31,886 bases of DNA from a virus. Of this stretch, positions 9,700 through 18,961 are shown piece after piece. The stretch's first letter is position 1. Every line of letters starts with the position of its first letter. The stretch covers positions 1-31,886 of the IMG/VR virus record IMGVR_UViG_3300007734_000571, one strand, 5' to 3'. A model generated the notes under the pieces. The model saw only the letters and a list, made by a program, of their open reading frames with translations. It was not told the DNA's origin and made no database searches. Both the position numbers and the translations under genes were made by a program.

Positions 9700-9752
9700 C
9701 CCCCTTATAACTAATCCCCCACAATTTAATCAACTATTCAATCACAAAAGGC

Positions 9753-9781
9753 TTGACCAATGGGTTGAAAGTCTCTAGACT
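9753..9781 (+). promoter_or_regulatory. putative promoter for the HTH regulator, giving a near-leaderless mRNA
   Basis: TTGACC (9753-9758), a 17-base spacer and TAGACT (9776-9781) resemble a sigma70 promoter. The ATG follows 11 bases after the -10 box, so transcription would begin at or a few bases before the start codon. No Shine-Dalgarno sequence is present ahead of 9793, which fits a leaderless message as known for lambda cI from its maintenance promoter. Confidence 0.4.
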
Positions 9782-9792
9782 CCCCTACCACT

Positions 9793-10023
9793 ATGAACAC
9801 ACAAACCATGCAAACCATTGAAAACATTAAGGAAAAGGCTGAAATTGCTGGCTACACCATCACAGATGTTGCTCGTCATGCTGGCTTTCACCCTGCCCAA
9901 GTTTCCAGATATGCCACTGGTAGAACAATACCACTGGTAACCACCATTAGGCGGCTAGATGAGTCGGTAGATTCCCTGATTCAGGCTCGTTTTAAGGCTC
10001 TACAGGGGCTGTTAAATGACTAG
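9793..10023 (+). CDS. Cro/CI-like helix-turn-helix regulator
   Basis: 76 residues, single domain, with the helix-turn-helix at about 23-42 (TDVARHAGFHPAQVSRYATG) followed by RTIPLVTTIRRLDE, the usual fifth-helix region. No protease or oligomerisation domain, so it is more like Cro than CI. It is the first plus-strand gene after the divergent control region and overlaps the resolvase gene by 8 bases, so it likely controls early or replication transcription from this intergenic region. No ribosome site is visible (see promoter entry). Confidence 0.8.
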   Translation: MNTQTMQTIENIKEKAEIAGYTITDVARHAGFHPAQVSRYATGRTIPLVTTIRRLDESVDSLIQARFKALQGLLND

Positions 10024-13605: not shown

Positions 13606-15648
13606 ATGTCAGCACAACAAATAGCCACTACCTTGGGCAATGCCAAGAAGGTAGGCAATGGTTACCTAGCAAGTTGTCCAGTACCTCATCATGGTCAAGG
13701 CAATGGGGACAAGAACCCAAGTCTCTCAGTCACAGATGGTGAGGATGGCAATGTTCTTTTTAAGTGTCATGGTGGGTGCGATCAGCATGAGGTTTTCAAT
13801 ACGATCAAGGACATGGGGCTACTCCCTGAATTACCACCCAGACCCGAATACCTTTCAAATGTCAGACCCATCATGCCAGCTATTCCAGTTTTAGAGCACG
13901 AGTGGTTTTACACAGACGAGAATGAACTTCCCCTGTTCGTTAAGCAAAGGTACAAGACTTTTGATGCCAAGGGAAAGACCTATAAGACGCTCAGAATCTT
14001 GGCTGATGGCAGTCGGGTAGGGAAGTTGGGAGATTGCAGAATTGTCCCCTACAGACTCCCCGAACTGCTACAGGCGGTTACCAATGGGAAGGTGGTTTAC
14101 ATAGCTGAAGGTGAAAAGGCGGTAGATGCCTTGTGCAGTCTGGGGGTGACAGCCACCACCTCGCACGCTGGCGCAGGAGGTTGGAATCAAGATTTGAATC
14201 AATACTTCTCTGGCGCAAATGTTGTTGTAGTGCCAGATAACGATGTTGCAGGGTGGAGTTATGCCGCCAAGATTGTGGAATCATTACTGCCTGTGGTCAA
14301 AACCATCAGGGTCTTGGATTTGGGGTTGGACAAGCCAAAGGAAGACGCTTACGAGTTTGTTCACCAATATGGCGGTACAAAGGAAACCCTAGCCGCCAAA
14401 GCCAAGGGCGCAAAGGTCTTGGGGCATGAGGATATTGTCCTGATACCTAAAAGGTTACGAGAGTTACCACCAGAAGAGATAAACCATAGTAAACCTGATA
14501 GAAATGCCTTGGTTGAGGTAAATGAGCCGCAAAGAAAGAAGTTGCTCGTTGAATCTTGGGACTCCATCAAGGATGAGCCAGTGGAATGGCTGGTGGAGTC
14601 GATTATCCCGAAGCGTAGTTTCGTTGCCCTGTACGCACCCCCTGCCTCGTATAAGTCATTCATCTCGCTTGACCTGGCTGAAGCAATAGCCACAGGTCGG
14701 GATTGGATGGGCTACAAGATACCCAAGAAAGGCGCAGTCCTCTACATCTGCGGTGAGGGTCATGGTGGTCTGGGTGCAAGGGTGAAGGCTTGCAAGATAC
14801 AAAACAAGAGTCCTGATGGGGCAAATCTGTACATCATCAGGGCGCAATTGAACCTGAGATCAAGTCCTGAAGACTTTGCGGAACTCCTCAATGCCATCAA
14901 TGACCTGATTGCTGAGATAGATGAACCCTTGGAACTCATCATCTTGGACACCCTGATGCGGATGTCTGGCGGTGGCTTTAACGAGAACTCATCAGAAGAC
15001 ATGGGTGGATTCATCACCCAAGCAGGGAAATTACAGGAAATCTTTGAGTGTGCCTTGATGGTGATTCACCATAGCGGTAAGGATGTGACAAAGGGCTTGC
15101 GTGGGCATAGTTCACTGCTTGGGGCTGTAGACACAGAACTTGAGATTGCCAGACAGGATTTACTCATCAACGCATCAGATGCAAGCGTGATAGGCAATGC
15201 CATCTTGACTGTTTCAAAGCAGAAGGATGGGGCTGACAGCATCCAGATAGGCATTGAAATTGTCTTGGTGGAGATTGGAATATCAGATTTGGGCTTTGAA
15301 ATCACCACCAGTTTGGCTATCAGACATAACCAAGAGATTGCTGGGAGTAACTCAAAAGGTAATAAAAACAATGCTGGTAGCGGCATGAATCAGAGGTTGG
15401 AGATGGATTCGTTGATGAAAGTGATTAAAGCTAAAGGCTCATATCGTGTAGTGGATGGTACTAGTCGTTATGGAGTGGCTTTGGATGATTGGAGGGCTGA
15501 GTTTTGGAGCATGAAGGGTTGTACTGAGGAGGATAAGGCGGCTTTTAAGAAGGCGTGGCTTCGTGCTAGGGAGAGATTGGTAGCCGTGAATAAGATCACG
15601 ATTGGGGACAATTGGGTGTGGTTGAAATCCAGTTCGGAGAATTTTTGA
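13606..15648 (+). CDS. primase-helicase: zinc finger, TOPRIM and RepA-like ATPase
   Basis: 680 residues. N-terminal zinc-binding region: CPVPHH (24-29) with FKCHGGC (Cys54, Cys58). TOPRIM: YIAEGEKAVDAL (165-176) and VVVVPDNDVAGW (206-217). ATPase of RepA/AAA_25 type: modified Walker A ALYAPPASYKSF (Lys350, Ser351), CGEGHGGLGAR (382-392), Walker B LELIILDTL (442-450) and MVIHHSGKD (485-493). The C-terminal 90 residues look like a winged helix. Together this resembles a bifunctional phage primase-helicase at the fork. It is the only replisome enzyme seen; a polymerase is missing, so host polymerase is presumably used. The start follows GAAAGATAACTAA; a weak ribosome site. Confidence 0.85.
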   Translation: MSAQQIATTLGNAKKVGNGYLASCPVPHHGQGNGDKNPSLSVTDGEDGNVLFKCHGGCDQHEVFNTIKDMGLLPELPPRPEYLSNVRPIMPAIPVLEHEWFYTDENELPLFVKQRYKTFDAKGKTYKTLRILADGSRVGKLGDCRIVPYRLPELLQAVTNGKVVYIAEGEKAVDALCSLGVTATTSHAGAGGWNQDLNQYFSGANVVVVPDNDVAGWSYAAKIVESLLPVVKTIRVLDLGLDKPKEDAYEFVHQYGGTKETLAAKAKGAKVLGHEDIVLIPKRLRELPPEEINHSKPDRNALVEVNEPQRKKLLVESWDSIKDEPVEWLVESIIPKRSFVALYAPPASYKSFISLDLAEAIATGRDWMGYKIPKKGAVLYICGEGHGGLGARVKACKIQNKSPDGANLYIIRAQLNLRSSPEDFAELLNAINDLIAEIDEPLELIILDTLMRMSGGGFNENSSEDMGGFITQAGKLQEIFECALMVIHHSGKDVTKGLRGHSSLLGAVDTELEIARQDLLINASDASVIGNAILTVSKQKDGADSIQIGIEIVLVEIGISDLGFEITTSLAIRHNQEIAGSNSKGNKNNAGSGMNQRLEMDSLMKVIKAKGSYRVVDGTSRYGVALDDWRAEFWSMKGCTEEDKAAFKKAWLRARERLVAVNKITIGDNWVWLKSSSENF

Positions 15649-15666
15649 TATGTATATTTATCCAGT

Positions 15667-15780
15667 GACAAACGGGACAAACGGGGACAAATGTCCCAAA
15701 TGTCTCCTTGAGGAGATGGGGACAAACCACCTCAGGTCTATATACCTGAGGTTTGTCTCCTGTCGCTTTGTCTCTTTGTC
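15667..15780 (+). repeat. iteron and nested hairpin array, possible origin or control site
   Basis: The 153-base gap after the primase-helicase holds four GACAAA copies in direct orientation (15667, 15676, 15686, 15721), three to four inverted TTTGTC copies (15752, 15767, 15775), and three inverted repeats in a row: GGGACA/TGTCCC (15684-15697), TCTCCT/AGGAGA (15703-15716), and a large hairpin whose arms GGGGACAAAC (15718-15727) and GTTTGTCTCC (15751-15760) enclose a second stem, CTCAGGT/ACCTGAG, with a 3-base bulge. Such density is not expected by chance. Replication origin, operator of a repressor, or RNA control element are all possible. Confidence 0.75.
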
Positions 15781-15801
15781 TTTTTGTGAAGGAAATTGAA
15801 A

Positions 15802-16434
15802 ATGAGTCGTTTAAAGTCAAGAAGAGAAGTTCCAAAGGTTGAGGTGAAAAGGTATGAGCCAACCACTTGGGATATTCAGGCAAGTGCTTGCCTCACCGAA
15901 TTGGAGACAAGGAAAGAGGAACATCACCAAAAATGGGGTTGTGAGAGATTGATTACTTTAGTTGACAGTGCATTCAGGGAGAAGTTTTGGGTGCAAATGG
16001 CTAGGGTTTGGGATGCGACAGATGCCAAGGACATTGAAAGACTGAGGAAGGCGGTCTATGGCATGGTCAAAGGCTACGATGCTTTGGAAAAGTGGGCAGT
16101 GGACAATGGAGTGCCGCAAAACCCAAAGATCAAGTTCTTGGAGTGGAAGACCTTGGATGGGAAAATCATGGCTGTTACCCAGACCATCCATGAGAGCATT
16201 GACCTACAGCGTGAAAGAAGAGACTTGAGTTGGATTTGGACACTGCAAGAGTTTGAGGTCATCTTGGCTGACCCACTGGTGCAAGAGGTGCTGAAGATCA
16301 AAGCACTTGACCCAACCGCACAGGTCAAGGTGTTCAAGAAGACAGGCGGTGATTCTGGGTTTGATGACATGGAAGATGACCTCCATGTCTTAGAGGGTGA
16401 GCCAGCACCTAAACTTTTCAATGTGCCGAGGTGA
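15802..16434 (+). CDS. phage protein of unknown function, possibly conserved, replication region
   Basis: 210 residues. A basic N-terminus (MSRLKSRREVPKVEVKRYEP) is followed by a helical, Trp-rich body (EEHHQKWGCERLITLVD, VQMARVWDATDAKDIERL, ALEKWAVDNG) and an acidic C-terminus (GFDDMEDDLHVLEGE). I believe related proteins occur beside primase-helicases in other aquatic phages, but know no function. AAGGA lies 8 bases before the ATG at 15802; a TTG at 15796 is less likely. Located just downstream of the hairpin array, which may therefore control it. Confidence 0.65.
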   Translation: MSRLKSRREVPKVEVKRYEPTTWDIQASACLTELETRKEEHHQKWGCERLITLVDSAFREKFWVQMARVWDATDAKDIERLRKAVYGMVKGYDALEKWAVDNGVPQNPKIKFLEWKTLDGKIMAVTQTIHESIDLQRERRDLSWIWTLQEFEVILADPLVQEVLKIKALDPTAQVKVFKKTGGDSGFDDMEDDLHVLEGEPAPKLFNVPR

Positions 16435-16437
16435 TGG

Positions 16438-16674
16438 GTGGCGAGTCCTCAACTCAATACTGTCCAGTTCAGGCGTAAGCTGACCAATGAACAAAGGACA
16501 ATCTTGTTGTGTGCTGGCAAAGGTGACATCACAAAGGGCTTTAAAGAGGTCTTAGATTGCTATGCCATCCTGTGGAGGCTTGGATACCGCCCTAGAAACG
16601 ATTTATACGATTTCTTAGGGGTAGATGAGGATGACCTAGAAAACCTTGCTGTAGGCGATTCTGACGAGGATTAG
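16438..16674 (+). CDS. small protein, unknown function, GTG start
   Basis: 78 residues starting at a GTG with GAGG 6 bases upstream; an ATG at 16434 in another frame stops after 14 codons. A basic helical N-terminal half (FRRKLTNEQRTILLCAGKGD) and a strongly acidic end (GVDEDDLENLAVGDSDED). It begins 4 bases after the previous gene and is the last gene before the 600-base non-coding region. No family recognised. Confidence 0.6.
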   Translation: MASPQLNTVQFRRKLTNEQRTILLCAGKGDITKGFKEVLDCYAILWRLGYRPRNDLYDFLGVDEDDLENLAVGDSDED

Positions 16675-16859
16675 AGGCATTTCTGCCTTGGCGTGTCTTT
16701 TATCCTTGGTTACGATTTAAATGCATAAAGAATGCGTTTTATATTACCCAAAGTCCTTATGACTTAAAGTAGTCTCAAGTACCCCAATAATGCACCCTCC
16801 GCTTCTCTCTCTCTTCGCCTCCACCCCCAAAAACAATTATCAATTCGATAAATACATAG

Positions 16860-16902
16860 TTATCCACAGGTTATCCACAGATTTGAATCGAAGTTATCCA
16901 CA
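16860..16902 (+). promoter_or_regulatory. cluster of three perfect DnaA boxes
   Basis: TTATCCACA occurs at 16860-16868, 16871-16879 and 16894-16902, all in the same orientation and all exact matches to the high-affinity E. coli DnaA box. Starts are 11 and 23 bases apart, about one and two helical turns, so DnaA molecules would bind on one face of the DNA. This points to replication initiation by the host DnaA, or titration of it. Confidence 0.85.
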
Positions 16903-17000
16903 TTTGTCCAAACTGGTTTCAATTTGCGTCTCAGTTTATTTGCGTTTGTAATACTTCCTTTGATTTTGAGTTAACATAATGGACATCGTGTTAAATGGAT

Positions 17001-17022
17001 TTTGTAAGTTATTTGTAAGTTA
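17001..17022 (+). repeat. perfect tandem 11-mer TTTGTAAGTTA
   Basis: Two exact back-to-back copies of an 11-base unit, matching one DNA helical turn, 100 bases from the DnaA boxes. The unit is AT-rich and could be part of the unwinding element or an iteron for a replication protein. Confidence 0.8.
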
Positions 17023-17283
17023 CAGAAAATGTCTAGCAAAATCAACGACTTACAAGCGGCTATCTGCAAAATGAGTTATCAACAGAAAAAAGTTCTCAGT
17101 TTTTTGATGGGGGGGAGGGGGTGGTCGCTGTCGATGAAAATTGTGGGTACATCCGCCCCACCGAAAAAGCGAAAATGGAAAAAGGGGCAACTCCCCCACT
17201 TCCCCACTACGAAAAAAAGAAGACTATCACCCACCAATTTGCTATAGTCCGCATCTATCACGCCCACCAAGACGAGGACAATC

Positions 17284-17709
17284 GTGAAGATAGAACAGAT
17301 GGACAGCATCCAAGATGAAGCCCCACAGCCAGAGAAGAAGAAAGCTGGCAGACCCAAGGGTATCTATGGCTTAAAGCGTCAGATACAGGAGTACGCAAGG
17401 AATCCTGATCTTGCCCTACCCAAGACTGACAACCAGAGAATCAAGGACTTGAAGGATATGCTTATCAAGTCCAGCGGTAAGGATGTGGTCGAGAAGATGA
17501 TTTCCATTGCGTTGAACGACAACCACCCTGCACAGATGGCGGCTATCAAGATGTGCGTTGACCGCACACTGCCAGTGTCCATGTTTGAGAAGGATAAGAG
17601 CCAAAGGAGTGCAGTCACGATCAATATCACTGGCATAGGCGCACCTGTAGCAAGCACCACAACAATTGAGCCTGATGACATACAGGATATAGAGGCTAAG
17701 AATGGCTGA
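17284..17709 (+). CDS. terS: terminase small subunit
   Basis: 141 residues starting at GTG with GAGGA about 5 bases upstream. Basic N-terminal stretch EKKKAGRPKGIYGLKRQ (18-34, AT-hook-like AGRPKG), then helices including NQRIKDLKDMLIKSSGKDVV and HPAQMAAIKMCVDRTLP, and an acidic C-terminus. Small size, DNA-binding look and an 8-base overlap with the large terminase gene identify it by context as the subunit that recognises phage DNA for packaging. Sequence alone is weak, as usual for this fast-evolving family. It lies directly after the putative origin region. Confidence 0.75.
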   Translation: MKIEQMDSIQDEAPQPEKKKAGRPKGIYGLKRQIQEYARNPDLALPKTDNQRIKDLKDMLIKSSGKDVVEKMISIALNDNHPAQMAAIKMCVDRTLPVSMFEKDKSQRSAVTINITGIGAPVASTTTIEPDDIQDIEAKNG

Positions 17710-18961
17710 TCTGAACTTTGCGCTATTGCCGTGGCAACAGGAGGTGTATGCCGACAAGACGAGGTTCAAGGTGGTGGTGGCAGGGCGAAGGTGCGGTAAG
17801 TCACGCCTTGCTGTCACGACACTCTTAATAGAGGGTTTGAGTTGCCCTGCTGGTAGTGCGGTGCTGTATGTTGCCCCGACTCAGGGTCAGGCGAGGCAGA
17901 TCATTTGGGATGTGCTCTTGGACATTGGGCGAGAGATCATCACCAGTAGCCATGTGAACAACATGGAAGTCACGCTTATCAATGGTGCAAAGATATACAT
18001 CAGGGGTTCAGACAGACCCGACACCTTACGAGGTGTCTCCTTGACTTACGCAGTACTGGATGAGGTAGCGGATATCAAGCCTGAGACTTGGGAACAGGTG
18101 ATTCGTGCGTCATTGTCTGACAAGCGTGGAAGGGCGATGTTTATTGGTACGCCAAAGGGTAGGAACTGGTTCTTTGACCTGTACAACTTGGGTCAGGAGG
18201 GTGAGGATGCTGATTGGAAATCTTGGCACTTCACCACCAAAGATAACCCCCTGATCGACCCCTCTGAAATCGAAAGCGCAAAGAAGACCCTATCAAGTTT
18301 CGCCTTTAAGCAAGAGTATATGGCATCGTTTGACAATGCTGGCTCTGATGTCTTCAAGGAGGAGTGGATTCGTTATGGCGAAATGCCAGAGCATGGGAGT
18401 TACTTCATAGCGGTGGACTTGGCGGGGTTTGAGGAGGTGGCAAAGCAAGCCGCCAACTCCAAGAAGAGGCTAGACCAGAGTGCCATTGCGGTGGTGAAGG
18501 TGACTGAGGATGGGAAATGGTATGTGCACAAGATTGAGTATGGGCGGTGGGACATTAGGACTACAGCCGCCAACATCCTGATGGCGATCAGGGACTACAA
18601 GCCTTTGTCCATTGGGATTGAGCGTGGGGCACTGAAAAATGCGGTACTTCCCTATTTGTCGGATTTAATGCGAAAATCCAACATATATGCCCATATTGTG
18701 GATTTGACGCATGGGAATAAGAAGAAGAGTGACCGCATCATTTGGGCATTGCAAGGAAGGTTTGAGCATGGCAGAATCGTGCTCAACAAGGAAGAGGATT
18801 GGTCGGAGTTTGTTGACCAGTTGCTGATGTACCCATCCCAAGGGGTGCATGATGATCTTCCTGATGCGTTAAGTTATATAGATCAGTTATCTATAACCTC
18901 ATACTTTGAGGCAGATGATGAAGACGAGTGGCAACCAATCGACATCATTAGTGGGGTTTAG
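17702..18961 (+). CDS. terL: terminase large subunit
   Basis: 419 residues. ATPase: AGRRCGKS (27-34, Walker A), YAVLDEVAD (116-124, Walker B with Glu121) and the coupling motif MFIGTPKGRNW. Nuclease (RNase H-like): YFIAVDLAG (Asp239), SIGIERGAL (Glu307), and VHDDLPDALSY (Asp388). Both the packaging motor and the headful/site nuclease are intact. It cuts concatemeric DNA and pumps it through the portal. Short for a terminase but complete, similar to other podovirus enzymes of about 420 residues. The stop at 18959-18961 directly abuts the next start. Confidence 0.96.
   Translation: MADLNFALLPWQQEVYADKTRFKVVVAGRRCGKSRLAVTTLLIEGLSCPAGSAVLYVAPTQGQARQIIWDVLLDIGREIITSSHVNNMEVTLINGAKIYIRGSDRPDTLRGVSLTYAVLDEVADIKPETWEQVIRASLSDKRGRAMFIGTPKGRNWFFDLYNLGQEGEDADWKSWHFTTKDNPLIDPSEIESAKKTLSSFAFKQEYMASFDNAGSDVFKEEWIRYGEMPEHGSYFIAVDLAGFEEVAKQAANSKKRLDQSAIAVVKVTEDGKWYVHKIEYGRWDIRTTAANILMAIRDYKPLSIGIERGALKNAVLPYLSDLMRKSNIYAHIVDLTHGNKKKSDRIIWALQGRFEHGRIVLNKEEDWSEFVDQLLMYPSQGVHDDLPDALSYIDQLSITSYFEADDEDEWQPIDIISGV

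Follow-up and report, generated by a model that had tools for sequence, protein, structure and literature searches.

What does a cluster of DnaA boxes do in the genome of a tailed phage, just in front of its terminase genes? The window, a viral record 31,886 bp long that was analysed whole, raises this question, as an earlier note made from its letters had proposed that the phage starts replication by recruiting host DnaA, or titrates DnaA to stop host initiation. Here we find that the boxes belong to a conserved control region which also holds an IHF site, an easily melted interval and an XerCD-type site. Reading the sequence against that of relatives, we think that the region is probably an origin of plasmid-like type that depends on DnaA and IHF and contains an Xer site for the resolution of multimers.

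Clustered DnaA boxes lie between replication and terminase genes

The description of three perfect boxes in the same direction holds: TTATCCACA occurs exactly three times in the window, each time on the plus strand and within the cluster, with start-to-start spacings of 11 and then 23 bp (Table 1). Second-order Markov shuffles (n=1500) contained a mean of 0.21 exact boxes per window, and even two boxes within 50 bp appeared in 0 of the 1500. The surrounding DNA had been called a gene-free region next to the terminase genes, and it is one, running from 16675 to 17283 between the g78 gene and the terS-like gene.

Table 1. Features of the control region and its flanking genes, in window coordinates.
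Feature	Position	Strand	Sequence	Basis
Primase-helicase (AAA_25)	13606-15648	+		PF13481, PHROG primase/helicase families
g212, 209-aa conserved protein without assigned function, companion of the box-bearing origin	15805-16434	+		no Pfam or PHROG family
g78, 78-aa conserved protein without assigned function	16438-16674	+		
DnaA box 1	16860-16868	+	TTATCCACA	exact match; mean column conservation 0.80
DnaA box 2	16871-16879	+	TTATCCACA	exact match; conservation 1.00, 31 non-redundant relatives
DnaA box 3	16894-16902	+	TTATCCACA	exact match; conservation 0.97
AT-rich easily melted interval, candidate duplex unwinding element	16903-17039	.		duplex-stability minimum
Candidate XerCD-type site, 28 bp	16969-16996	-		dif-matrix match and recurrence
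XerD arm	16979-16969	-	TTATGTTAACT	
XerC arm	16996-16986	-	ATTTAACACGA	
Tandem 11-mer repeat, TGTAAG motif at 11-bp spacing	17001-17022	+	TTTGTAAGTTA	conservation 0.83
IHF consensus	17040-17052	+	AATCAACGACTTA (WATCAANNNNTTR)	consensus match
Decayed DnaA box 4	17076-17084	+	TTATCAACA	same alignment column exact in relatives
G-run, terminase side	17109-17121	+	GGGGGGGAGGGGG	
Probable terminase small subunit (terS)	17284-17709	+		position only: directly 5′ of TerL, conserved
Terminase large subunit (TerL)	17702-18961	+		PF03237 and PHROG terminase large subunit

On its 5′ side the window encodes a PD-(D/E)XK exonuclease (DUF2800) and a C5 methyltransferase, then the primase-helicase, g212 and g78; on the 3′ side, the probable terS and TerL are followed by portal, tail and capsid genes. 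Pfam and PHROG searches with the probable terS returned no match, and the AlphaFold model of g212 (pLDDT 75) found no confident match in the PDB. Neither an Rfam family nor a tRNA was found in the window. At 15655-15793, in the gap that separates the primase-helicase gene from g212, we also observed a strong hairpin whose GACAAA/TTTGTC repeats are both direct and inverted (DNA folding z-score -5.1), which is possibly an operator or a single-strand initiation site.

No closely related isolate phage was found, every TerL and helicase match falling below 60% identity. Two related records wrap round and can be drawn as circles, one of 33.3 kb and one of 36.9 kb. As the overlapping ends of the smaller map are only 86-96% identical (97% for the larger), the 33.3-kb circle is an assembly of mixed strains; measured against it, the window is about 2.3 kb short. 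The suggestion that the phage is virulent finds no support here. GC skew, which had been put forward as a check on the origin, was computed for the window and the two wrap-around contigs and gave no origin signal: the cumulative curve turns neither at the cluster nor at 15661-15790, the other place that had been considered. Because skew tracks gene direction in these genomes, it is uninformative for the origin.

The boxes keep a fixed register among relatives

The earlier note had named conservation of the boxes in related phages as a check, and their absence there as grounds for giving up the proposal. To examine relatives we searched viral contigs with TerL alone, which returned at least 80 loci, 58 of them with upstream DNA that could be examined; counts from this and the other collection scans are samples drawn from the matches listed, and group counts may include near-identical strains. 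Among the matches listed in the TerL-only sample, clustered exact boxes precede the terminase genes at 37 of 38 loci whose TerL is at least 86% identical, the exception (L027) having just 985 bp of upstream sequence. At 82-84% TerL identity, 19 of 20 loci in the same sample of listed matches are without boxes, and the remaining one, L052, has a different box arrangement.

The phages of the window's type, which we call group 1, also preserve the geometry of the cluster. An exact triple at the 0/+11/+34 register is present in 42 of the 56 distinct group-1 regions among the matches listed, so the boxes are conserved in a fixed register; the subgroup of L020 and L028 has box 1 displaced or lacks it. 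The near-match at 17076 is a decayed fourth box: its alignment column reads exactly TTATCCACA in the close relatives L001, L002 and L005 and TTGTCCACA in L007 and L011, and an exact right-side box occurs in 50 of the 56 distinct group-1 regions listed. The number of exact boxes varies from three to six per relative, all at one place, and none was found elsewhere in the relatives' records.

An easily melted interval and an IHF site accompany the boxes

We aligned the intergenic regions of 31 non-redundant relatives, which share 67% identity on average between pairs, and compared single elements with the column mean of 0.73. Besides the boxes, the parts that stand above this mean include an IHF site (0.91), the XerD arm (0.96) and centre (0.94) of an Xer site, and a G-run (0.97). 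Reading from the 5′ side, the region consists of the left box array, the AT-rich interval, the tandem 11-mers, the IHF site and the right box array. An AT-rich stretch before the boxes (16829-16858) had been counted as part of the origin, but it is unconserved, and it is the AT-rich interval after box 3 that is conserved.

This interval contains some of the least stable DNA of the locus. When the stretch from box 3 to the IHF site was scored in 25 relatives, its 80-bp stability minimum fell within the lowest 0-0.7% of the locus every time (25 of 25) and was the local minimum in 20; in the window itself, positions 16945-17044 rank 122 of 31,786 in stability. A lone match to the IHF consensus in a window is in itself not rare. 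Among the matches listed, it is present in 56/56 group-1 regions (fixed offset 43-44), in 24/35 regions of a second phage group and in 0/8 of a third. The region thus combines a box cluster beyond chance, an adjacent unstable AT-rich element and an IHF consensus. The same plan is seen in classical origins that use DnaA and IHF, among them oriC, R6K gamma and that of pSC101 (PMC5043065).

The tandem 11-mer reported after the boxes is present as well. Its TGTAAG repeats adjoin the XerC arm of the Xer site and an inverted CTTACA copy overlaps the IHF site; the repeats may be iterons or a site for a regulator, possibly a response regulator.

A candidate XerCD site is embedded in the easily melted interval

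Both the IHF site and a conserved XerCD-type site had escaped the earlier reader. The latter lies inside the AT-rich melting interval, where the plus-strand block AGTTAACATAATGGACATCGTGTTAAAT reads ATTTAACACGA-TGTCCA-TTATGTTAACT on the minus strand. We scored it with a matrix built on published dif sites (n=29; PMC2731167), which themselves score 10-39 bits. At 12.5 bits it is the best match of the window, and 9 of 200 shuffles score as high; as this score alone is modest, the case for the site rests on comparison. Nearly every box-bearing relative has its best matrix match at the aligned site (12-17 bits), and a scan with exact patterns found it in at least 119 contigs that fall into three phage groups with different terminases. 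It has two 11-bp arms, a centre in the 6-8 bp range and an inner palindrome, and the XerD arm is the best conserved part. An invariant XerD arm beside a variable XerC arm, as in the phage site, is also the pattern of dif sites (PMC2731167).

The phage XerD arm is identical to that of proteobacterial dif except at one base, and the whole site matches the dif of Rhodoferax ferrireducens at 22 of 28 bases in the window and at up to 23 in relatives. Its centre, TGTCCA, differs from TGTATA, the usual betaproteobacterial dif centre, and is closer to plasmid sites: the psi site of pSC101 has GATCCA, and a short BLAST of the 28-mer against plasmids led to a ColRNAI plasmid site with TGTCCA itself. The same short search against phages gave chance matches only. 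In plasmid-type sites such as psi and cer, ArcA or ArgR binds accessory DNA together with PepA. This accessory DNA of plasmid sites extends over some 200 bp next to the XerC arm (PMC11724359). On that side the phage site has conserved DNA with repeats spaced by 11 bp, a likeness to plasmid-type accessory DNA that is suggestive only. As a sigma-70 promoter the 28-mer is ruled out, as its hexamer spacing is wrong and the promoter scan was empty there.

Independent variants of the site occupy the same place before the G-run in more distant phages. In L312, a phage contig assigned to the MAG of a betaproteobacterium, AATGCAGATAA-CCAGCA-TTATGTAAAAT (834-861) lies 64 bp before the G-run, with no DnaA boxes, and scores 26.5 bits on its arms; L052 reaches 17.0 bits, and L067, with ACTTGATGCAA-TAAATA-TTATGTTAAGT, 12.0. 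Most other relatives with 82-84% identical TerL had no convincing site. One MAG contig and the XerC arm, which resembles Rhodoferax ferrireducens dif, suggest a betaproteobacterial host, and the Xer site may serve as a hint at the host. Rhodoferax-type dif patterns had no match among relatives of the MAG of L312 (sets of 61 and 300 genomes), a classical dif was present in 17 of 60 genomes in the host-dif search, and a search with the L312 arms matched the phage contig itself and nothing else.

Boxes and IHF site follow the replication module

The three groups differ in which genes they share. Group 2 phages have a related primase-helicase (about 37-52%) and g212 (about 34-43%) and an unrelated TerL; their Xer site lies between terS and terL and is accompanied by one to four exact boxes. 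In group 3, whose putative replication gene is a different one (HTH_36), boxes and IHF site are both absent, yet the Xer site is kept. As in group 1, the region is placed just 5′ of terS in group 3.

Within the window-type TerL family, the presence of the primase-helicase/g212 module goes with that of the boxes. Two or more boxes occur at 62 of 62 loci with the module, and no box at all at 16 of 16 loci that lack it and have an 82-84% identical TerL, both counts among the matches listed. Because part of these 62 and 16 loci had been fetched by motif, the TerL-only sample is the cleaner test; it agrees with the link except for L052. The comparison of groups therefore indicates that the boxes and IHF site follow the primase-helicase module and the G-run the terminase, and that the Xer site is common to all. 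As group 3 has the Xer site without boxes, the two functions are separable.

The G-run itself was considered as a part of the origin and rejected, for it persists where boxes are absent: a run of at least six G precedes TerL in 21 of 21 examined relatives without the group-1 origin. C-runs replace it in groups 2 and 3. It is possibly a packaging, R-loop or G-quadruplex element.

A model for the region and the alternatives to it

The part of the earlier proposal that concerned an origin using host DnaA is thus strongly backed by comparison: the box register, the IHF site, the easily melted interval and the link to the replication module speak for it, and with the boxes kept in relatives it withstands the conservation check set for it. 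Titration of DnaA stays as its alternative. In the origin model, host DnaA would bind the three phased direct boxes of the left array and, where a right array exists, as it does in most relatives, that array too; IHF would bend the DNA between the arrays, and the AT-rich interval would melt. The phage primase-helicase and the host replisome could then start theta replication of the circle. A family-A DNA polymerase (PolA) was found in none of 17 records, which fits reliance on the host replisome. At the dif/psi-type site, multimers of the circular genome would be resolved by host XerC and XerD; insertion of the genome into the chromosome is a less likely role for that site. Gene content lends no support to a plasmid-like resident state: neither a ParA-type partition gene (PF13614) nor a tyrosine recombinase/integrase (PF00589) was found in 21 records.

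Three other readings deserve attention. The region could be a decoy whose boxes and IHF site sequester or inactivate host DnaA while replication starts elsewhere with the phage primase-helicase. The chromosomal DnaA control loci datA and DARS likewise combine DnaA boxes with IHF, the phage does have a primase-helicase of its own, and the number of boxes varies between relatives. However, there are merely three to six exact boxes at a single place, they go with the replication genes when modules are exchanged, and a decoy does not need the conserved melting interval between the arrays; this reading is unlikely. The phage element further differs from datA and DARS in being phage-borne and in holding an unstable interval and an Xer site. 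A role in packaging (cosB- or pac-like) or late-operon control, or as a DnaA-regulated terminase promoter, appears very unlikely. The site does lie just 5′ of terS in groups 1 and 3, the cosB site of lambda also uses IHF, and the G-run at 17109 is retained 5′ of TerL in all examined relatives. Yet nearly all relatives with the same terminase and G-run, and another replication module, are without boxes and IHF site, the group-2 site lies between terS and terL, and no good sigma-70 promoter was found in the cluster.

The Xer site could also be an attP through which the phage, lacking an integrase, uses XerCD to integrate at the host dif, with the boxes serving the excised form. Such integration is known for filamentous phages and for elements of Vibrio and Neisseria (PMC5357621) and has been proposed for the tailless phage Jorvik (PMC10589892), and it would suit both the absence of PF00589 and an XerD arm one base away from that of proteobacterial dif. 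Against it, the 94 listed distinct contexts of the site are all phage-flanked wherever sequence extends, though in a collection, IMG/VR, that trims hosts; none is a copy at a host dif, and we therefore see no sign of integration. The genome scan found no prophage: a TerL query of genome contigs matched a single sequence, a phage contig of 4.7 kb that belongs to a metagenome bin. The TGTCCA centre, too, is unlike that of betaproteobacterial dif. We consider integration improbable. With CTXphi, VGJphi and the GGI, which are integrative elements exploiting Xer (IMEX), and with Jorvik the phage shares the lack of an integrase and a dif-like site, but it is a tailed dsDNA phage with no integrated form among the 94 contexts.

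Among known replicons, pSC101 is like the phage in joining a DnaA/IHF-dependent origin (PMC5043065) and a 28-bp XerCD site in one molecule, and its psi, GGTGCGCGCAA-GATCCA-TTATGTTAAAC, resembles the phage site in the centre and XerD arm. In pSC101, however, psi (6.8 kb) stands apart from the lone DnaA-box match (5.0 kb), whereas the phage Xer site is inside the origin interval, and the origin depends on RepA, whereas the phage has no recognised Rep/iteron system. Like the phage, E. coli oriC has high-affinity phased DnaA boxes, an IHF site and adjacent unstable DNA; the phage has few boxes, no 13-mers that we could identify, an embedded Xer site and its own primase-helicase. R6K gamma is similarly an AT-rich origin with IHF, bounded by DnaA sites (PMC5043065), but the phage is without a pi-type initiator and has no iteron array beyond two 11-mers. 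In the open-access literature searched, no example came up of a DnaA/IHF origin with an embedded Xer site in a tailed phage, which does not prove that none exists.

A wider and rather doubtful generalisation is that a widespread group of uncultured tailed phages replicate as DnaA/IHF-driven plasmid-like circles in which an XerCD resolution site within the melting interval couples initiation and monomerisation physically, with DnaA and IHF acting as the Xer accessory complex. If true, environmental tailed phages would use the host initiator and chromosome-dimer resolvases in place of phage-coded initiators and recombinases, and their replication would be tied to the cell cycle of the host. It would then be worth searching metagenomic phages for DnaA boxes and Xer sites as marks of a plasmid-like or chronic way of life, and the region would offer a small system for testing how initiation and dimer resolution are coupled.

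Box pairs and Xer-like sites also occur together outside the three groups. Among loci retrieved solely by their box pair and unrelated to these groups, three (L102, L121 and L147) have an Xer-like site of at least 11 bits within 300 bp, where the remainder of that DNA predicts 0.6. In L121, whose TerL is only distantly similar and seems to hold an intein, a G-run, two exact boxes and the Xer-like AGGATATATAATAAGTATTATGTTAACC (18.4 bits) fall within about 75 bp (9740-9815), 5′ of the terminase genes. Five further phages with about 55% identical TerL (L086, L103, L161, L169 and L176) carry five to eight exact boxes about 0.8-1.4 kb 5′ of terL.
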